Source: Pseudobdellovibrionaceae bacterium (lineage in GTDB: Bacteria > Bdellovibrionota > Bdellovibrionia > Bdellovibrionales > UBA1609). From it: a stretch of DNA of 64,000 nucleotides. This document shows positions 40,228 through 49,430 of this stretch, piece by piece. Under the pieces are notes generated by a model. The model was not told the DNA's origin. It searched no databases and saw nothing but the letters and a program-made list of their open reading frames with translations. Where the stretch lies: positions 1 to 64,000 of the forward strand of contig JABJQG010000041.1 in NCBI GenBank assembly GCA_018663505.1, read 5' to 3'. Each line of letters begins with the position of its first letter. Within the stretch, counting starts at the first letter, position 1. The position numbers and the translations under genes are program-made.

Positions 40228-41229
40228 TTATAAGGGGTCTGAGCCTGGTGCAACAGGGCCAACAAAAGTATCGCTTTCGATGACTTGGTCCTCTGTAACC
40301 ATAATCTCCCCCTCGATCTCTGGAGAAATTGTTCCTTGCTCGATAAAGTGATTTCTCATTCTTTCGGCAATCTCCTGTAAATGATGGAATTCATCGCCAG
40401 TTCTCAATCTTAGGACCTTGTCTTCTCCTCTTAATAATGAATCTAAGAAAAGCTCAAATGCATAAAGAGGGCCGGCAGTACGGTGTGAAAGTACTCGTCC
40501 AATTAAGAACAGAAAAAGGATAAAACCACCACAAAGGCTAAAAAATGTAAAAATAAAAGGAGTTAAAAATTTTCGTTCCACTAGTGTTGTGGAGCCGATA
40601 ACTAACTCATCGATCATGACTTGTAAATAGGTATATGAAAATACGCCCGCAATAATAGAGAAGCCAAATCCGATAACCATTAAAATGAAGCAGTATTTTA
40701 ATTGGAACTTAGGATTAATCCATATTTTTTTTCTGGTGTTTTCTGTGGGCCATAATTGTTGGCCATCGCGAATTAAGGCGTACACCACCATGATGTAACC
40801 TACCCATTGAATGGCATCGGCCACATTAAATGCTGGAGTTGAAAATTTTCTTGAACCAATTAGTAAGAAATCAACAACTGAACCCCAGAGAATTCTGTCA
40901 GTTACATTGCCTAATATTCCACCAAGAAGTAAGGACATTCCTACTCTTAACATTAGTGATTTCATAGGGAGTAAGTACTGAATGGTTGTATATGCAAAAA
41001 CTAAAAAAGCGCCACCAGTGGAAAGTGAAACAATTCTTAATATTGGAGGGAGGTCAGAGAACATGCCAAGCATGGCGCCAGGATTTCTATGTAGAACCAA
41101 TCCAAATGGGCCATAAAATTTAACCCCTTGGATGAAATTAAGAGCCCACTGTTTAGTGGAAGCATCAAGTGCCCAGGTAATAAATACCGCTGCAATAACA
41201 AATAACCATTCTCTTTTTCTCAATAACAT
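40228..41229 (-). CDS. lspA: Lipoprotein signal peptidase fused to a two-helix HAMP module
   Basis: Residues 1-160 are signal peptidase II, the enzyme cleaving prolipoproteins: HRNPGAMLG (47-55), GNVTDRI with catalytic Asp111 and FNVADA with catalytic Asp138, in four membrane helices. The remaining roughly 170 residues are not part of LspA: a helix at about 177-202, a short periplasmic loop, a second helix at about 211-245 and a HAMP domain (246-295) with its conserved Pro-Leu (254-255) and Asp-Glu (279-280). An acidic tail ends the protein. HAMP domains pass signals from membrane to cytoplasm, yet no output domain follows. The peptidase is probably active; regulation by HAMP is inference. 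Confidence 0.88.
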   Translation of the reverse strand: MLLRKREWLFVIAAVFITWALDASTKQWALNFIQGVKFYGPFGLVLHRNPGAMLGMFSDLPPILRIVSLSTGGAFLVFAYTTIQYLLPMKSLMLRVGMSLLLGGILGNVTDRILWGSVVDFLLIGSRKFSTPAFNVADAIQWVGYIMVVYALIRDGQQLWPTENTRKKIWINPKFQLKYCFILMVIGFGFSIIAGVFSYTYLQVMIDELVIGSTTLVERKFLTPFIFTFFSLCGGFILFLFLIGRVLSHRTAGPLYAFELFLDSLLRGEDKVLRLRTGDEFHHLQEIAERMRNHFIEQGTISPEIEGEIMVTEDQVIESDTFVGPVAPGSDPL

Positions 41230-41352: not shown

Positions 41353-42807
41353 ATGAGATTTAAGATTCAGTATATTATACTTGTTTTAGCGGTTACCGTG
41401 AGTTTAGCTATGGAGGCTAAAGATTCGTTAAATACGCTAAGCCATCAAATAAAAAGTAAAGTTTTAAAAAGTTCTATTTCAAGCTCAAATCTAGGAATTC
41501 TTATTCGGTATGATCTTGGTCCTGATTCAAAAGTATTATACCAGCTCAATGAAAAGAAAAAATTTATCCCAGCCTCTGTGAGTAAAATAATTCCTGCAAC
41601 GGTAGCTTTAGAAGCCTTCCCCAGGGGACATCAGTTTGTCACAAAAATATTGGCTAATAAAGATGTTTCAATCACAAAGACGCTTAATGGCTCTATATAT
41701 ATAAAAGGGGATGGTGATCCAAAATTTACCTCTGAATCTATGTGGGAACTTGTAAATCGTTTTTCTCGAACTGGAATCACAAAAATAACTGGCGATATTA
41801 TTGTTGATGATAGTAAGTTTGATCAGCTAAGATTTGATCCCAGCAGAGAAGCTTCACGTATTGATCGTGCATACGATGCACCCGTTGGAGCTCTTTCATT
41901 TAACTGGAATAGTGTGAATATGTTTGTTCGACCAGGTAAGGGTGTAGGTACAGCTGCCATTGTTACTGCTGATCCAATTAATGAATATGTGAAAGTTATC
42001 AACCAAGCAAAAACAGTTAAAGCGCATAAAAAGACAAGGTTAAGAGTCACTCGTAAGAATAATACAAAGTTTAAAAAAGACACAATTGTAGTTACCGGAA
42101 CCATTGCTTTAGGCCATTCGGAAATTGTGAAATATAAAAATATTTCCTATCCAGATTATTGGAGTGGATATCAGTTAAAAGCTTTTTTGAAACAAAGAGG
42201 AATTAAAGTAAGTGGACATGTGACAAAAGGAAAAGCTCCTAAGGCAACTATTCTATTAGCTCAGTTACCAAGTGCTAATATATCTTTAATTGTTAGTGAT
42301 ATGATGAAGTATTCGAATAACTATATAGCAGAAATGTTAACTAAAAACCTAGCAGCCTTGGGACAGAAAACAAATGTGTCTTTAAAACAAGGTGTTTCGA
42401 AAATGAGTTTGTACTTACGCAATAGAATTGGTTTGGAAAATAGTCCTTTTGTTTTCAAAAACCCATCAGGACTTACGAGAGAAAATCGATTTAGCCCAGA
42501 AGATATAGATTTGATTCATTCTAGTGTACAAAAAAACTTTCAAATTTTTCCCGAGTATTTAAACTCGTTGCCGATTTCCGGTATAGATGGATCATTGAAA
42601 AATAGAATGAAAAACTTCAATATAAAAGGTTGGGTCAGAGCTAAGACAGGTACGCTTACGGGGGTCACTGCATTAGCTGGATTTGCTGGTCAGTCAGGTG
42701 GCACTATGTTTCAATTTGTTTACTTTTTCAATGGGCCAGAGCGAAAGAAACAAAAAGCCATGAAGTTATTTGATGAATTATCTAAAACTCTTGTTCAGGG
42801 GCATTAA
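41353..42807 (+). CDS. dacB: PBP4-type D-Ala-D-Ala carboxypeptidase/endopeptidase
   Basis: This 484-residue periplasmic enzyme of the S13 family trims peptidoglycan peptides. The catalytic triad motifs are SVSK in PASVSKIIPAT, SNN in YSNNYIAEM and KTG in VRAKTGTLTG. A signal peptide (YIILVLAVTVSLAMEA) directs export. GDIIVDDSKFD and YDAPVGALSFNWNS are typical of DacB. It lies 2 bp upstream of the transglycosylase gene, so the two form a peptidoglycan-remodelling operon. Confidence 0.9.
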   Translation: MRFKIQYIILVLAVTVSLAMEAKDSLNTLSHQIKSKVLKSSISSSNLGILIRYDLGPDSKVLYQLNEKKKFIPASVSKIIPATVALEAFPRGHQFVTKILANKDVSITKTLNGSIYIKGDGDPKFTSESMWELVNRFSRTGITKITGDIIVDDSKFDQLRFDPSREASRIDRAYDAPVGALSFNWNSVNMFVRPGKGVGTAAIVTADPINEYVKVINQAKTVKAHKKTRLRVTRKNNTKFKKDTIVVTGTIALGHSEIVKYKNISYPDYWSGYQLKAFLKQRGIKVSGHVTKGKAPKATILLAQLPSANISLIVSDMMKYSNNYIAEMLTKNLAALGQKTNVSLKQGVSKMSLYLRNRIGLENSPFVFKNPSGLTRENRFSPEDIDLIHSSVQKNFQIFPEYLNSLPISGIDGSLKNRMKNFNIKGWVRAKTGTLTGVTALAGFAGQSGGTMFQFVYFFNGPERKKQKAMKLFDELSKTLVQGH

Positions 42808-42809
42808 TA

Positions 42810-44249
42810 ATGACCGTTATTAAATCATTTACCATAATTCTAGTTTCCTTTTTATCAATGCAGCTTGTACAGGCAGGCTCAACAACGGTTTCTTTTCCAG
42901 ACGTTCTAGAGGAAATCGATTTAGAAAAAGCTAGAAAATGGCATCCACCTAATTTTAAGAATCAAGAGGATGCTTTAGGTTATGACATTAGTACTTTCTC
43001 TGTACCTCCTGGAATGGAAGAACGGGTCTCTTTTTGGATCGATATCTACACAAAGTTTAATACTAACCAAGGGCTGTTGCATGATAGTCGCTATGTCAAT
43101 TTAGTTTATGAGGTGGTGGACTTCACTTCGATTATGACTAATGAAAATTACTCTAAACGAGAGAAACAAAAGCTAAGACGAAAAATGGTAAAAGAGGCTA
43201 AAAATAAAATAAAGCAGCGCCTTACGAATTTACAAAAATATTCTAGCCCGGCAGGGTTGGATGATGAAGATCTAAGATACTGGTACTTATTTAAAAATAT
43301 CAAGGAACACAACCGATTTAAAAAAGCCACTCATAGATCTAGGCTGAGGTTTCAGCTAGGTCAGAGTAATCGCTTTTATAAAGGTATTTATCTTTCAGGA
43401 TTATATTTGGAAAAGATGGAAAAAATATTTAAAGATTCAGGACTTCCTGTGGAGCTGACCAGGTTGCCATTTGTTGAGAGCTCCTTTAATTATAAGGCGA
43501 GATCAAAAGTAGGCGCTAGTGGTATCTGGCAGTTTATGCGTTATACGGGAAAGCGTTTTTTAAAAATGAATGTTTCTGTGGATGAACGTAACGACCCCAT
43601 AAGAGCAACAGAAGCCGCTGCACGCATGTTAAAGGCAAATTATAAAAGGTTAGATTCTTGGCCTTTAGCAGTGACCGGTTATAATCATGGGCCAAGTGGA
43701 GTAAGACGACTAGTTAATAAATTCAAAACCAGAAGTATTGCTGAGCTGGTAAATGCCAGGCGTGGTAGCTTCGGATTTGCTTCTGCAAATTTTTATGCCA
43801 GTTTCTTGGCTGCAATTACAGTAGAAAAGAACGCTAAAAACTTTTATGAAAAAATTTATTGGAAAAAGCCCCAACTCAGCAAAGAAATTAAGCTGACTAA
43901 AAATATTTCAAAAAAAGAAATATTAAAATGGTTTAATAATGACCATGATCTGGCTAAAACTTTTAATCCACATATCAAACGAGTGGTGTGGCGAGATCAA
44001 GTACGCCTGGGGAAAAAAAACTTTTTAAGAGTTCCCGAAGACATTCACCAGCAAGTTTTAGCGGATCTTTCAAAATTGAAGAAGATGAATTTATTCCAGG
44101 GCAAAAGTTATAAAGTATCTAATGGAGATACTTTAAGTTCTATAGCGTATAATTTTGGTGTTTCACTGCGCCGACTTAGAAGTGCTAATGCGAACTTAAA
44201 TCCACGTCGACTAAGAATAGGTCAAAAAATATTTATTCCAAGAAAATAG
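42810..44249 (+). CDS. mltD: MltD-like lytic transglycosylase with LysM domain
   Basis: The 479-residue protein has a signal peptide (FLSMQLVQAG), a long helical N-terminal region, and an SLT catalytic domain: LPFVESSFNYKARSK holds the catalytic Glu, followed by GASGIWQFM and TGYNHGPSGV. One LysM domain ends the protein (YKVSNGDTLSSIAYNFGVS to IGQKIFIP), binding glycan. It cleaves peptidoglycan between MurNAc and GlcNAc. It follows dacB directly. There is no lipobox, unlike E. coli MltD, so it is probably soluble in the periplasm. Confidence 0.9.
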   Translation: MTVIKSFTIILVSFLSMQLVQAGSTTVSFPDVLEEIDLEKARKWHPPNFKNQEDALGYDISTFSVPPGMEERVSFWIDIYTKFNTNQGLLHDSRYVNLVYEVVDFTSIMTNENYSKREKQKLRRKMVKEAKNKIKQRLTNLQKYSSPAGLDDEDLRYWYLFKNIKEHNRFKKATHRSRLRFQLGQSNRFYKGIYLSGLYLEKMEKIFKDSGLPVELTRLPFVESSFNYKARSKVGASGIWQFMRYTGKRFLKMNVSVDERNDPIRATEAAARMLKANYKRLDSWPLAVTGYNHGPSGVRRLVNKFKTRSIAELVNARRGSFGFASANFYASFLAAITVEKNAKNFYEKIYWKKPQLSKEIKLTKNISKKEILKWFNNDHDLAKTFNPHIKRVVWRDQVRLGKKNFLRVPEDIHQQVLADLSKLKKMNLFQGKSYKVSNGDTLSSIAYNFGVSLRRLRSANANLNPRRLRIGQKIFIPRK

Positions 44250-44333: not shown

Positions 44334-47300
44334 TTATGGGGAAGCAATACTCGCAGGGATTGTTAATTGGCCGTTTGCTGAGTCGTTGGAATTTTCTTCC
44401 CAACATGTAACTTTGCCGCTACTTAGAAGGGCACAGGCATGAAATGCTCCTGTACCCACATCAATTACTTTACCTGTAATCGACGCTATTGGGTTATCAG
44501 TATTAATATAACCCCAGCATTTTGCTTTTCCATCTGTGGTGACGCCACAGGCGCTATCATGCTCTGCAGAAACTTTGCGAGCAGTTGTTAAGTTAATATT
44601 TGTTGGGTTTAGGTTGCCAGTACCTAAAGCATAATCGAACCCCCAGCAATGAACTTTATTTGTCAGGGAATCTATGGCGCAGGTGAAGTCAAAGCCGGCA
44701 CTTGCGGTTAAAGCTTCTCCGGGCCCATCTACATTGGCCGGAATATTGGACAATTGTCCCTTGTCATCAGGCCCCCAGTTTATAATTTTTCCGTCGGCTG
44801 ATAGCGCGGCTCCATGATAGTACCCTGCATAAAGTTCACGGGTAGAGCCAGCTAAAGTTAAGTTATAAGTATTTAATACCCCAGCAGTGGCTAAATCACT
44901 AAGTTGAGTAAAAGCATTATTTCCTCGGCAACCGATGTCTCCTGTAACTCCTAGGCTACACATAAAACTTAAACCTCCGTCTCCGGTTTTTGTGTAATTG
45001 GCGTCAGAATATGGAACTGAAAGGGTGGTTTGACTATTAACAGGATCTCCCCAGCATTCCTGGATTCCGGAGCTTCTGATGGCACAGGTTGCATTGGCTC
45101 CAATATATAGGTCAACGGTAGAGCCGGCAAGATTCAGACCTGTAGGAATAGTAGTTTTTCCATTGGCGGCGTCCCCCCAGCAGTTAATGGAGCCGTTAGC
45201 AAGTAATGTACAACTATGGTAAGCGCCAACAACCAATTTTATCACTGCATTTACAGAGCCACCCAAACTAATATAGGGCATGTCTTTTGGAAACTCATTA
45301 TCTCCAATAGATAAGTGGGGACCTAACCCCATTTCACCAAACAGTCCGTCTCCCCCCCAGCACTTTACATGTCCATTAACAAGAATGGCGCAGCTTTGGT
45401 TGCCTCCAGCATAAATACTTCGTACTCTCTCTCCTCCGAGATCTACATCAGCTGTTGGTGATGCTGTATCTCCTACAGTGGTGGTGTGTCCTAAACCAAG
45501 TTGTCCCACATTATTGAGCCCCCAACACCTTGCATTGCCAGTGGCAAGTAATGCACAACTATGAAAACGACCGGTTGCAATCTGTACCGCGGGTTCTCCA
45601 GAAAGCACATAGCCTTTAGTTTCTGGGTCTAAAACGTCGGAAGTATCTCCGTAACCAAGACGACCAGCGGTGCCTACACCCCAACAGCTGATATTCCCAT
45701 CAGTTAAAAGAGCACAGGTGTGATTAAAGTTTGCTGATATTTGCTTAATTGGGTTAGTTAGAGTGACCAGAGGAGCGGACGCGGTATTATGAATACCTGC
45801 GCTGGCTCCGTAGGTGTTGTTGAGTGCATTTCCTAATTGACCAGAAAATCCGTAGCCCCAACACTTTGCTTTTCCGGAGGAGAGCAGAACGCAAGTATGT
45901 GAGTCACCTGCTTCAATTTGAATGGGAACACCTGTAACTGCTCCAAGGGGAATGGGGCCATTAAAGCTAGGTGTTTCGCCAGCACCGTCACCAAGATTTG
46001 TAACGTTGTTATAACCAAGACGACCATTGCTCCCGTTACCCCAACAGCGAGAGTCTCCTCCCACTAAAATGGCACAAGTATGATTTTGCCCAGCAGTAAT
46101 GGAGAGGGCTTTTTGCCCTAGGTTAATCATACCTGCACCAAGGGGGTCCTCATTGTCCCCTATGGGTAATATGTTCCCGTGTCCGAGTTCTCCGTCAGAA
46201 TTTCCTCCCCAACAAAAAACATCACCGCTAGCCATTAAGGCACAGGTGTGATCTCTTCCAGCAACAATCTCAGTGGCAAAACCAGAAGGTCCTAAGTTAA
46301 CAATGACACCTTCATCAGGATAGGAAGTGAGTCCCTGATCGTCTACATTTCCTTGCCCCAGTCGACCACCGAGGCCACTGCCCCAGCAAAGAACTTTACC
46401 TTCAGCATTTAAAGCACAAATATGCTCATCTCCCACGGCCATTGATTTAGTTGAGCCGATGGGTGCTGAAGGAGGATGTATAGTGGTTATGGACCATGAG
46501 GAGGAGTAGGTGTTTCCTACATCAAGTATAACGGCAGAGCTTTGAGAATAGCTAGTTGCTGTAGTAAAGCGAATTTGCACATAATCATTGTTGTCCACAA
46601 CATCTATAGCTAAAGCATTTGTCCAGCCATGCTTTACAGAGGATTCGCAGCTACTTTCACTGGTACCATCTGTACAAATACGATACTCAGGTGATGAGCC
46701 TGTTCCCGCTGAAATGATGATGCTAATTTCCACCGCAGTATTTATTCCTGTAATTTGTAGTGGGTAGGAAGTAACAACAGAGTTTCTTCGGTACACACTG
46801 TGGAGTGGAGCAGGAAAGGCAATATTGTCTGGAGTGATATCCAATACATTTACGGCAAATTCATCGCCTATAATGCCGCTGTTGCCATCATCAAATCTCA
46901 CATTAATATTACAGAGCCCTGCAAACCCTGCGGCGGGCTGGAATGACACGGCACCATTAGTTGCATTAATACTAAAGCCACCAGGTTCTGCATGAGCTGA
47001 ACAGTCTAAACTAGAGGCTGCACCGAAGCTATAAGTACCAAAACCTTCTTCATCTGTTTGGACATCAGCGTCAGTTTTAATTATAGCAAAATTAGCGTCT
47101 TGGTAAATATCTATATTAACAAGGGAACTTGAAAGTACTGGAGCAACGTTAACAATAGTTACGGTTAGAGTACTACTAGTAGAGATAATTCCATCACTAG
47201 CATCCATTGCTAATATACAATCGCCAACATTGTCATCGTTAGGAGTTGCGAAAAATGCTCCAGTGGCGGAGTCTATTGTATTAATCCATGCACAAGTATT

Positions 47301-49430
47301 TGCAGCAGCAATGGACCATGTGTGGGTATCACCGGAATCAGGATCTACAAGGATTGGAGAGCATACAAACGAAACGTCTTGATGGTTTGGTGAGGCGGCA
47401 CAATTAAGGCTGAGAATTACTGGAGCATCGTTAACAGGATTTACTGTAATTGCAAACTCACTAGCGATTGTGTTTGATGTTGCATTGCCATCATCAAACA
47501 CCACTTTGATATTACAGGTACCGGAATAGTTGGTAGCTGGTTGGAAAGTCACAGCTCCTGAAGAGCTGTCTATAGTTAGCCCCAAAGTATGATCAGAGCA
47601 TTTGGGCGCTGTTGTGGAAGCATGATCAAAACTATAAACTCCAAATCCTTCTTCGCTGGCCTGTACCATTGCATCGGTTCTTATAATTGAAGAGGCGGCA
47701 TCTTCCAGAATAGATGCAGCATCAGCAATAATTAAGCTAGGAGTTACATTGCTGACGGTTATATTTAATGATGTCACTAAAGAATCATTTGTTCCGTCAT
47801 TCACTTTATAAGCTAAAATACATGAACCCACGTCATCATCATTAGGCACCCCACTCAAAACTCCACTTGTTGCATTTATATTAGCCCAGGCACATGTATT
47901 ATTTGTTACATCCAGGCCCCAAACATAAGGGCCTGGGCCATCAGCATCGGTGAAGGTCGGAGAGCATGTATAAGCGGCATCTTGATTTAAAGAAATTGCG
48001 CAGGTCTGTGAAATAACAGGAGCAATATTCGTGGCAACATTTACAGTAATGGCAAACTCACTAGCCACTGTATTTGACGAAGCATTGCCATCATTAAATA
48101 CCACTTTAATATTACAGGTTCCAGTATAATTGGCAGCTGGTTGATAAGTAACTGCCCCGGTGGTGTTGTCTAGTGTTAAATCCAAAGTATTATCAGAACA
48201 CTTAGGTGCCGTGGTGGTTGCATGATCAAAACTATAAATCCCAAAGCCCTCTTCGTCGGCTTCTACATCAGCATCAACTCTTATAATTGAAGCAGCGGCT
48301 CCTTGTAATATCGCTGCAGCATCGGTAATAGTTAAGGTTGGAGCAATATTATTAATTGTAAGGGTTGTGGAACTTATAATGGAGTTATTAGGGAATGTGT
48401 CAGTAACCAAAAAAGCTAAGATGCAATCTCCCACGTCATCATCCCCAGGGCTTCCTGAAATGTTTCCAGTATTAGGATCAATGGAAAGCCAGTTACAAGT
48501 ATTGGTAGTACTGTCAAAACTCCAACTTAGAGTTTCACTTTCAGCATCAGTAGCTGTGTTTACACAAGAGTAGACCGTGTTTTGTACTCCAGAAGTTGAA
48601 CAAGCAGCAGAGGTAATGGTTGGAGCTGCATTTGTTGAAGTTGTCACCGTCCATGATCCCCCTGCTGTGGCACCCACGGTTAACGTAGCGCTAAAGGGAC
48701 TGGCGTTGGAAGCCGAACTGGTTAATTGTATTTGCACATAGTTATTATTTATAACATTCCCAGATCCTGTCATGGAGGTCCAATTGTGTAGTACATTAGA
48801 GCAAGAACTATCGTTGCAGACTCGATATTCGGGGGCCCCATCACCAGAAATGCTAATGTCAGAAGCTATATCTATTCCCGTGATTTGTATAATGTCAGAT
48901 TCTACAAGGGTGGATGTAGAGGCTATGGAGTTATTTGTAAAATTAAAGGCATCTGGCATGTTATCAATACCAGGCTGAACTCTTTGGATACTCAAAATAA
49001 CAGGAGAGGAAGGGTCATTTTTTATATAAGAATATATTTTAACTTCTACACTATTACCGTGGATATCCTGAAGCCCAAGCTCAGGATAACTTGAGCTTGT
49101 GTAACGAAAATTAAAAGAGAAAGAGCCTTCACTTTCACAACTAAGATTAGCGGAACTATCTATTTGTTTAAGATCAACTGGACTGGAGTTGGCCACTGAT
49201 ACTTTAATACTATCAGTTTTTTTATTACAAGTTCCAGAAATGAGAATATCACTTCCCCAAAGTGTATTATCAATTTCCATTTGTGTTTGACTAAGAGAAG
49301 GGGGCTGCGATGAAAATAAAGATGTAATATCAGGGATTTGATCAGTACACCCTAAATTAGATAACATAAAGAGCAAGGTGAATACTTTGCTCATGTCATT
49401 GATATTAAATACATTTTTAACGTTCCACAT
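44334..49430 (-). CDS. Giant RCC1-repeat lipoprotein with cadherin/Ig-like repeats
   Basis: The 1698-residue protein has a lipoprotein signal (FTLLFMLSNLGC; an in-frame ATG at 49394 gives the more usual length). Residues about 260-905 hold alternating Ig/cadherin-like modules: short He_PIG-type units (ITSAACSTSG, then SGSPGDDDVGDCILAF) and three roughly 105-residue units each containing DEEGFG or SEEGFG and DDGN or NDGN. Paired modules with PEYRVCND and PEYRICTD flank that region. From about residue 990 to the end come 14 RCC1-type repeats, most with H-x-C-A-L...G...C-W-G, enough for two seven-bladed propellers. Regularly spaced Cys may give disulfides. It is likely a surface adhesion or recognition protein; function unknown. 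Confidence 0.85.
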   Translation of the reverse strand: MWNVKNVFNINDMSKVFTLLFMLSNLGCTDQIPDITSLFSSQPPSLSQTQMEIDNTLWGSDILISGTCNKKTDSIKVSVANSSPVDLKQIDSSANLSCESEGSFSFNFRYTSSSYPELGLQDIHGNSVEVKIYSYIKNDPSSPVILSIQRVQPGIDNMPDAFNFTNNSIASTSTLVESDIIQITGIDIASDISISGDGAPEYRVCNDSSCSNVLHNWTSMTGSGNVINNNYVQIQLTSSASNASPFSATLTVGATAGGSWTVTTSTNAAPTITSAACSTSGVQNTVYSCVNTATDAESETLSWSFDSTTNTCNWLSIDPNTGNISGSPGDDDVGDCILAFLVTDTFPNNSIISSTTLTINNIAPTLTITDAAAILQGAAASIIRVDADVEADEEGFGIYSFDHATTTAPKCSDNTLDLTLDNTTGAVTYQPAANYTGTCNIKVVFNDGNASSNTVASEFAITVNVATNIAPVISQTCAISLNQDAAYTCSPTFTDADGPGPYVWGLDVTNNTCAWANINATSGVLSGVPNDDDVGSCILAYKVNDGTNDSLVTSLNITVSNVTPSLIIADAASILEDAASSIIRTDAMVQASEEGFGVYSFDHASTTAPKCSDHTLGLTIDSSSGAVTFQPATNYSGTCNIKVVFDDGNATSNTIASEFAITVNPVNDAPVILSLNCAASPNHQDVSFVCSPILVDPDSGDTHTWSIAAANTCAWINTIDSATGAFFATPNDDNVGDCILAMDASDGIISTSSTLTVTIVNVAPVLSSSLVNIDIYQDANFAIIKTDADVQTDEEGFGTYSFGAASSLDCSAHAEPGGFSINATNGAVSFQPAAGFAGLCNINVRFDDGNSGIIGDEFAVNVLDITPDNIAFPAPLHSVYRRNSVVTSYPLQITGINTAVEISIIISAGTGSSPEYRICTDGTSESSCESSVKHGWTNALAIDVVDNNDYVQIRFTTATSYSQSSAVILDVGNTYSSSWSITTIHPPSAPIGSTKSMAVGDEHICALNAEGKVLCWGSGLGGRLGQGNVDDQGLTSYPDEGVIVNLGPSGFATEIVAGRDHTCALMASGDVFCWGGNSDGELGHGNILPIGDNEDPLGAGMINLGQKALSITAGQNHTCAILVGGDSRCWGNGSNGRLGYNNVTNLGDGAGETPSFNGPIPLGAVTGVPIQIEAGDSHTCVLLSSGKAKCWGYGFSGQLGNALNNTYGASAGIHNTASAPLVTLTNPIKQISANFNHTCALLTDGNISCWGVGTAGRLGYGDTSDVLDPETKGYVLSGEPAVQIATGRFHSCALLATGNARCWGLNNVGQLGLGHTTTVGDTASPTADVDLGGERVRSIYAGGNQSCAILVNGHVKCWGGDGLFGEMGLGPHLSIGDNEFPKDMPYISLGGSVNAVIKLVVGAYHSCTLLANGSINCWGDAANGKTTIPTGLNLAGSTVDLYIGANATCAIRSSGIQECWGDPVNSQTTLSVPYSDANYTKTGDGGLSFMCSLGVTGDIGCRGNNAFTQLSDLATAGVLNTYNLTLAGSTRELYAGYYHGAALSADGKIINWGPDDKGQLSNIPANVDGPGEALTASAGFDFTCAIDSLTNKVHCWGFDYALGTGNLNPTNINLTTARKVSAEHDSACGVTTDGKAKCWGYINTDNPIASITGKVIDVGTGAFHACALLSSGKVTCWEENSNDSANGQLTIPASIASP

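Follow-up and report, generated by a model that had tools for sequence, protein, structure and literature searches.

Signal peptidase II (LspA; PF01252 Peptidase_A8, MEROPS A8) is usually regarded as an unregulated housekeeping enzyme, and it is an antibiotic target. In the P. aeruginosa enzyme, we take D124 and D143 to be the catalytic dyad. The LspA family itself is known; we found no earlier description of an LspA-HAMP fusion, or of an LspA domain followed by two transmembrane helices and HAMP (LspA-2TM-HAMP), in the literature searched, which included work on LspA in Bdellovibrio and from which subscription journals were mostly out of reach.

We analysed a 64,000-nucleotide stretch of DNA from a Pseudobdellovibrionaceae bacterium (contig JABJQG010000041.1; hereafter, the window) that encodes such a fusion. 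As originally predicted, the fusion is one protein of 333 amino acids, encoded by a single ATG-to-stop frame with no internal stops. Its parts are as follows.

40228..41229, minus strand: LspA-2TM-HAMP fusion gene, ATG start, 333 amino acids (open reading frame list and full-length homologues)
40756..41217, minus strand: signal peptidase II (Peptidase_A8) domain, residues 5-158, four helices (Pfam and structure)
40870..40872, minus strand: catalytic Asp D120, equivalent to P. aeruginosa D124 (alignment; Asp in 129/130 distinct homologues)
40816..40818, minus strand: catalytic Asp D138, equivalent to P. aeruginosa D143 (alignment; Asp in 129/130 distinct homologues)
40603..40755, minus strand: linker and fifth helix, residues 159-209, where the 2TM-HAMP module begins
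40492..40590, minus strand: sixth transmembrane helix, residues 214-246 (model and hydropathy)
40336..40491, minus strand: predicted HAMP domain, residues 247-298 (conservation, homology and model; cytoplasmic by topology)
40231..40335, minus strand: variable C-terminal tail, residues 299-333, without an output domain (pLDDT about 50)

Architecture of the fusion protein

The LspA part matches the Pfam Peptidase_A8 profile over residues 15-153 with 82.6 bits (cut-off 25), and in the predicted model it superposes on 6ryp (Z 15.9) and 5dir_C (Z 15.8). The box residues D22, K26, N49, N108, D111, R112 and N135 are all present. In an alignment to P. aeruginosa LspA (9emz/5dir), D120 and D138 correspond to D124 and D143. 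D111 and D138 had been put forward as the catalytic aspartates; D138 is indeed one of them, but D111 aligns with D115 and the dyad partner is D120, all three residues being conserved. By every family trait that sequence or structure can test, the domain is a signal peptidase II, save that the fusion scores below the cut-off for the housekeeping lspA equivalog (NCBIfam TIGR00077; 48.7 versus 73.95 bits). Enzymes of this family cleave diacylated prolipoproteins and are inhibited by globomycin.

The two additional membrane helices proposed to follow the LspA domain are apparent both as hydropathy peaks (residues 180-198 and 225-243) and as helices (173-209 and 214-266) in an AlphaFold2 model built from a 57-sequence input (mean pLDDT 88.6). 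In this model, the helix of residues 214-266 continues from the membrane into a HAMP-like arrangement with a connector at 267-282 and a second helix at 283-297, and P254 and D279 are conserved; the conserved HAMP positions of the fusion are S248, G253, P254, F258, R276 and D279. The Pfam HAMP profile gave no matches in the 19 fusion proteins scanned, with E up to 10; hence, by profile the HAMP domain is not as clear as originally described. Two other lines of evidence back the assignment: sequence homology and the predicted structure. When we searched with a profile of the fusion, its C-terminal 130 positions matched twenty standalone 2TM-HAMP proteins of ~150-225 amino acids, with E from 1e-11 to 1e-19, and two of the ten that we scanned score above the Pfam HAMP cut-off of 25 (28.7 and 26.3 bits). 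Model residues 173-300 superpose on the TM-TM-HAMP region of WalK (9a5d_A, itself an integrative model) with Z 8.3 and an rmsd of 1.9 Å over 125 residues, which we regard as support rather than proof because a Z near 8 can reflect a common arrangement. The Foldseek list contained no significant match for the C-terminal half; the WalK likeness came from further structural comparison.

Consistent with the original prediction, we found no output domain after the HAMP domain in the window protein, the tail being variable and of low pLDDT. Elsewhere, one locus (L165:5921-7378) encodes an LspA-HAMP protein followed by an AhpC/TSA redoxin domain, the sole clear cytoplasmic-type domain that we saw after HAMP. 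In one genus (L239:7463-9421, L240, L241 and L242), the fusion frame lacks a stop and reads on into the CxxCH barrel-like protein encoded downstream, signal peptide included, giving extended frames of 652-659 amino acids.

Distribution and descent

Strong fusion matches were present in 48 of the 58 genomes of the first search (the window genome included), nearly all of them full length, with identities of 45-68%, and about 125 of 140 genomes of the order Bdellovibrionales carry the fusion. The named matches are almost all Bdellovibrionales MAGs, and include B. bacteriovorus strain kdesi (L125). The fusion also occurs, more patchily, in other classes of the phylum. A search for the architecture in other genomes had been proposed, with loss from close relatives as a ground for doubt; full-length fusions extend across the order and into other classes, with no general loss among close relatives. 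The proposed search for a second, ordinary lspA likewise found one in the window genome, a separate gene of 169 amino acids (at G000:C16), which means that the fusion is not the sole LspA there. An ordinary LspA coexists with the fusion in nearly all genomes tested.

In a maximum-likelihood tree of the LspA domain, for which ordinary LspAs were sampled from this phylum only, all 51 fusion domains were separated from all 21 ordinary LspAs with UFBoot 100. Most likely, therefore, the fusion is old and had a single origin.

Among 130 distinct fusion proteins, N135 is kept as often as D120 and D138 (129 each), D111 is kept in 128, and N49 and N108 are kept in 126. Conservation extends beyond the peptidase: R166 and Q176 of the linker are present in 129 and 130 proteins, respectively, and G253, P254, R276 and D279 of the HAMP domain in 128. 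Mean identity of homologues to the window protein is 56% for LspA and 54% for HAMP, compared with 42% for the intervening helices and 11% for the tail.

Gene neighbourhood and lipoprotein linkage

In the window, two genes on the opposite strand lie beyond the 5′ end of the fusion gene.

41353..42807, plus strand: Peptidase_S13 / PBP4-type dacB, divergent neighbour (Pfam; syntenic across the order)
42810..44249, plus strand: SLT transglycosylase with LysM, MltD-like (Pfam; syntenic in many relatives)

In about forty Bdellovibrionales loci, the fusion has a co-oriented gene for an SBP_bac_5 binding protein upstream, frequently no more than 100 bases away. Many loci have a REC-GGDEF gene, either between these two or directly upstream of the fusion. 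Many genomes, that of the window included, have no REC-GGDEF gene beside the fusion. Where the gene is directly upstream (about 20 genomes, e.g. L059, L062, L097, L132 and L150), it encodes a REC-GGDEF diguanylate cyclase.

The co-oriented immediate upstream neighbour is a predicted lipoprotein, according to a simple purpose-written rule, at 34 of 74 distinct loci, compared with 57 of 728 background pairs (odds ratio 10), although the loci share ancestry and are not phylogenetically independent, such that a p-value overstates the association. The upstream lipoproteins belong to unrelated families (SBP_bac_5, a cytochrome-type lipoprotein and a DUF4331 lipoprotein); downstream, there is a DUF7151 lipoprotein, and small lipoproteins occur in L164 and L257. 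Next to intact fusions, every full-length binding protein with a readable N-terminus has a lipobox-like cysteine, some of these calls being our own inspection of the N-termini. Linkage to particular lipoprotein genes is as suggestive of dedicated substrates as it is of regulation.

We found no orthologue of the linked binding protein in the window genome, where the fusion gene stands alone; therefore, no substrate can be named for the window species. All Bdellovibrionaceae likewise keep the fusion without the binding protein, and in Bdellovibrio the gene stands alone. Separately, the window encodes a 1698-amino-acid protein (44334-49430, minus strand) that combines Ig/cadherin-like repeats with RCC1 repeats; its N-terminus, SNLGC, is lipobox-like.

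Linkage takes a different form in family f12, which belongs to another class and is presumably Bacteriovoracales-like. Here, the operon includes the fusion, a haem-motif (cytochrome-type) lipoprotein, a second lipoprotein, a twin-arginine-type protein and a CxxCH barrel-like protein. Among 129 f12 genomes, the fusion and the haem-motif lipoprotein occur together in 35, the lipoprotein alone in 2 and the fusion alone in 24, and neither occurs in 68 (Fisher p 2e-13; within-genus CMH chi2 26); within one genus, four of five genomes lack both genes and the fifth has both. The two genes are adjacent or within 10 kb of each other in most genomes, and on different contigs in a few. The operon lipoproteins have an atypical lipobox, [FY][NT][HQN]C. 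Lipoproteins with an atypical lipobox of the form [FY][NTQ][HNQ]C are frequent in the phylum (L166-L174, L192-L196 and L239-L254), and the motif is conserved in the fusion operon. We rejected the idea that the atypical lipobox ([FY]x[NHQ]C) depends on the fusion: the genome-wide ratio of the DNA pattern to its reversed control was 1.28 with the fusion and 1.34 without it, a weak comparison made with a noisy pattern.

Degenerate fusions bear on the division of labour within the protein. One clade contains four reduced genomes (L034, L035, L036 and L180) in which the LspA motifs are eroded, and the adjacent binding protein has no lipobox and is apparently membrane anchored. Erosion is milder in a separate genus. 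There, G014 has lost D22, K26 and D111, and its binding protein, which is not linked to the fusion, lacks an N-terminal cysteine; in the related G131, D22 and K26 are intact, as is the lipobox of the binding protein. The HAMP residues survive in all of these fusions, that of G131 included. This pattern, with LspA decaying beside binding proteins without a lipobox and HAMP retained, suggests a peptidase part in the service of the binding lipoprotein and a HAMP part with some function independent of cleavage. Against this, Bdellovibrionaceae and the window genome have the fusion but not the binding protein, and two reduced genomes (G017 and G030) have the binding lipoprotein but not the fusion; therefore, ordinary LspA can probably process this lipoprotein, and we rejected strict dependence on the fusion. 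G054, G120 and G121 also appeared to be without the fusion, but we left them out because their binding-protein loci break off at contig ends.

Possible roles and relation to known systems

We give an even chance to the reading that the fusion is an accessory signal peptidase II, probably a dimer, that processes a restricted range of lipoproteins and uses HAMP as a coupling or regulatory device. An LspA paralogue would have been joined once, in an ancestor, to a resident two-helix HAMP membrane protein, giving the phylum an additional signal peptidase II that probably retains catalytic competence. The fusion would act on only some lipoproteins, cleaving their signal peptides; in many genomes these substrates would be encoded next door, and ordinary LspA would handle the bulk of lipoprotein processing. 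The 2TM-HAMP part would probably make the fusion a homodimer, and may couple the state of the peptidase or of a bound lipoprotein to the cytoplasm, or act in the reverse direction. The original suggestion that lipoprotein processing is regulated, or coupled to a partner, by dimerisation through HAMP is compatible with the HAMP residues, which are conserved even where the peptidase motifs have decayed, and with the frequently adjacent REC-GGDEF genes. It is a more tentative and rather doubtful proposition that lipoprotein maturation is itself a signalling step, in which LspA binding or cleavage of a specific lipoprotein would be relayed via HAMP to the cytoplasm, for instance to the REC-GGDEF cyclase encoded alongside, or cleavage would be gated by a signal from the cytoplasm, making the fusion a regulated signal peptidase II.

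The fusion might instead be a redundant, broad-specificity second LspA, with the HAMP tail a mere anchor or dimerisation device and the neighbours incidental. The coexistence of ordinary LspA in nearly all genomes tested is consistent with redundancy, as are the retention of the fusion by Bdellovibrionaceae without linked lipoproteins and the genome counts of the atypical lipobox DNA pattern, which are independent of the fusion. However, redundancy sits poorly with near-invariant HAMP and linker residues, with repeated linkage to unrelated lipoprotein genes, and with co-occurrence of the fusion and the cytochrome-type lipoprotein in f12, and we consider it somewhat improbable. Alternatively, the protein could be a sensor more than a peptidase, in which the LspA domain would bind lipoproteins as a receptor and HAMP would report its occupancy to a partner, e.g. 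the REC-GGDEF protein. We think this unlikely: a pure receptor would have no need of the catalytic residues that about 125 of 130 proteins keep, no output domain is fused, and the REC-GGDEF gene is not beside the fusion in many genomes, including that of the window. Nonetheless, a REC-GGDEF gene is directly upstream in about 20 loci, the upstream gene often encodes a solute-binding protein, and HAMP and linker residues outlast decaying LspA motifs, all as expected of a sensor. A frameshift or an assembly join of two genes, raised originally as a possible artefact, has a negligible probability, since dozens of independent assemblies, including closed ones, contain the full-length frame with 43-68% identity; the existence of the 2TM-HAMP module as a standalone protein is the one point in its favour that we found.

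If the fusion is an accessory peptidase of the kind that we favour, a second LspA wired to a signalling module would provide control over which lipoproteins mature, and when, in a phylum that includes predatory bacteria. Bdellovibrio bacteriovorus is genetically tractable and carries the fusion gene, which opens the question to direct testing. Annotation that relies solely on an LspA profile masks this distinct paralogue.

Like WalK-type HAMP receptors, the fusion has two helices around an extracytoplasmic segment, followed by a predicted helix-connector-helix HAMP; unlike them, it has neither a sensor domain between these helices nor an output domain of the kinase, methyl-accepting or cyclase kind. 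The same bacteria have standalone 2TM-HAMP proteins (150-225 amino acids) that are homologous to the entire C-terminal module, including the N-P-x-FQ linker motif, but have no LspA domain, form several paralogous groups and occur in other gene contexts. Each genome has several of these groups (L204, L210, L212, L199 and other loci in L199-L218), none with an output domain, and the genes are often beside those for a CtpA-type protease, trigger factor or SmpB/KsgA, names that are our own reading of the sequence. With signal peptidase II, the fusion shares the fold, the four helices, the box motifs and the Asp dyad; it differs from ordinary LspA in being twice as long, in carrying the extra 2TM-HAMP module, and in forming a clade of its own that is distinct from the housekeeping copy.
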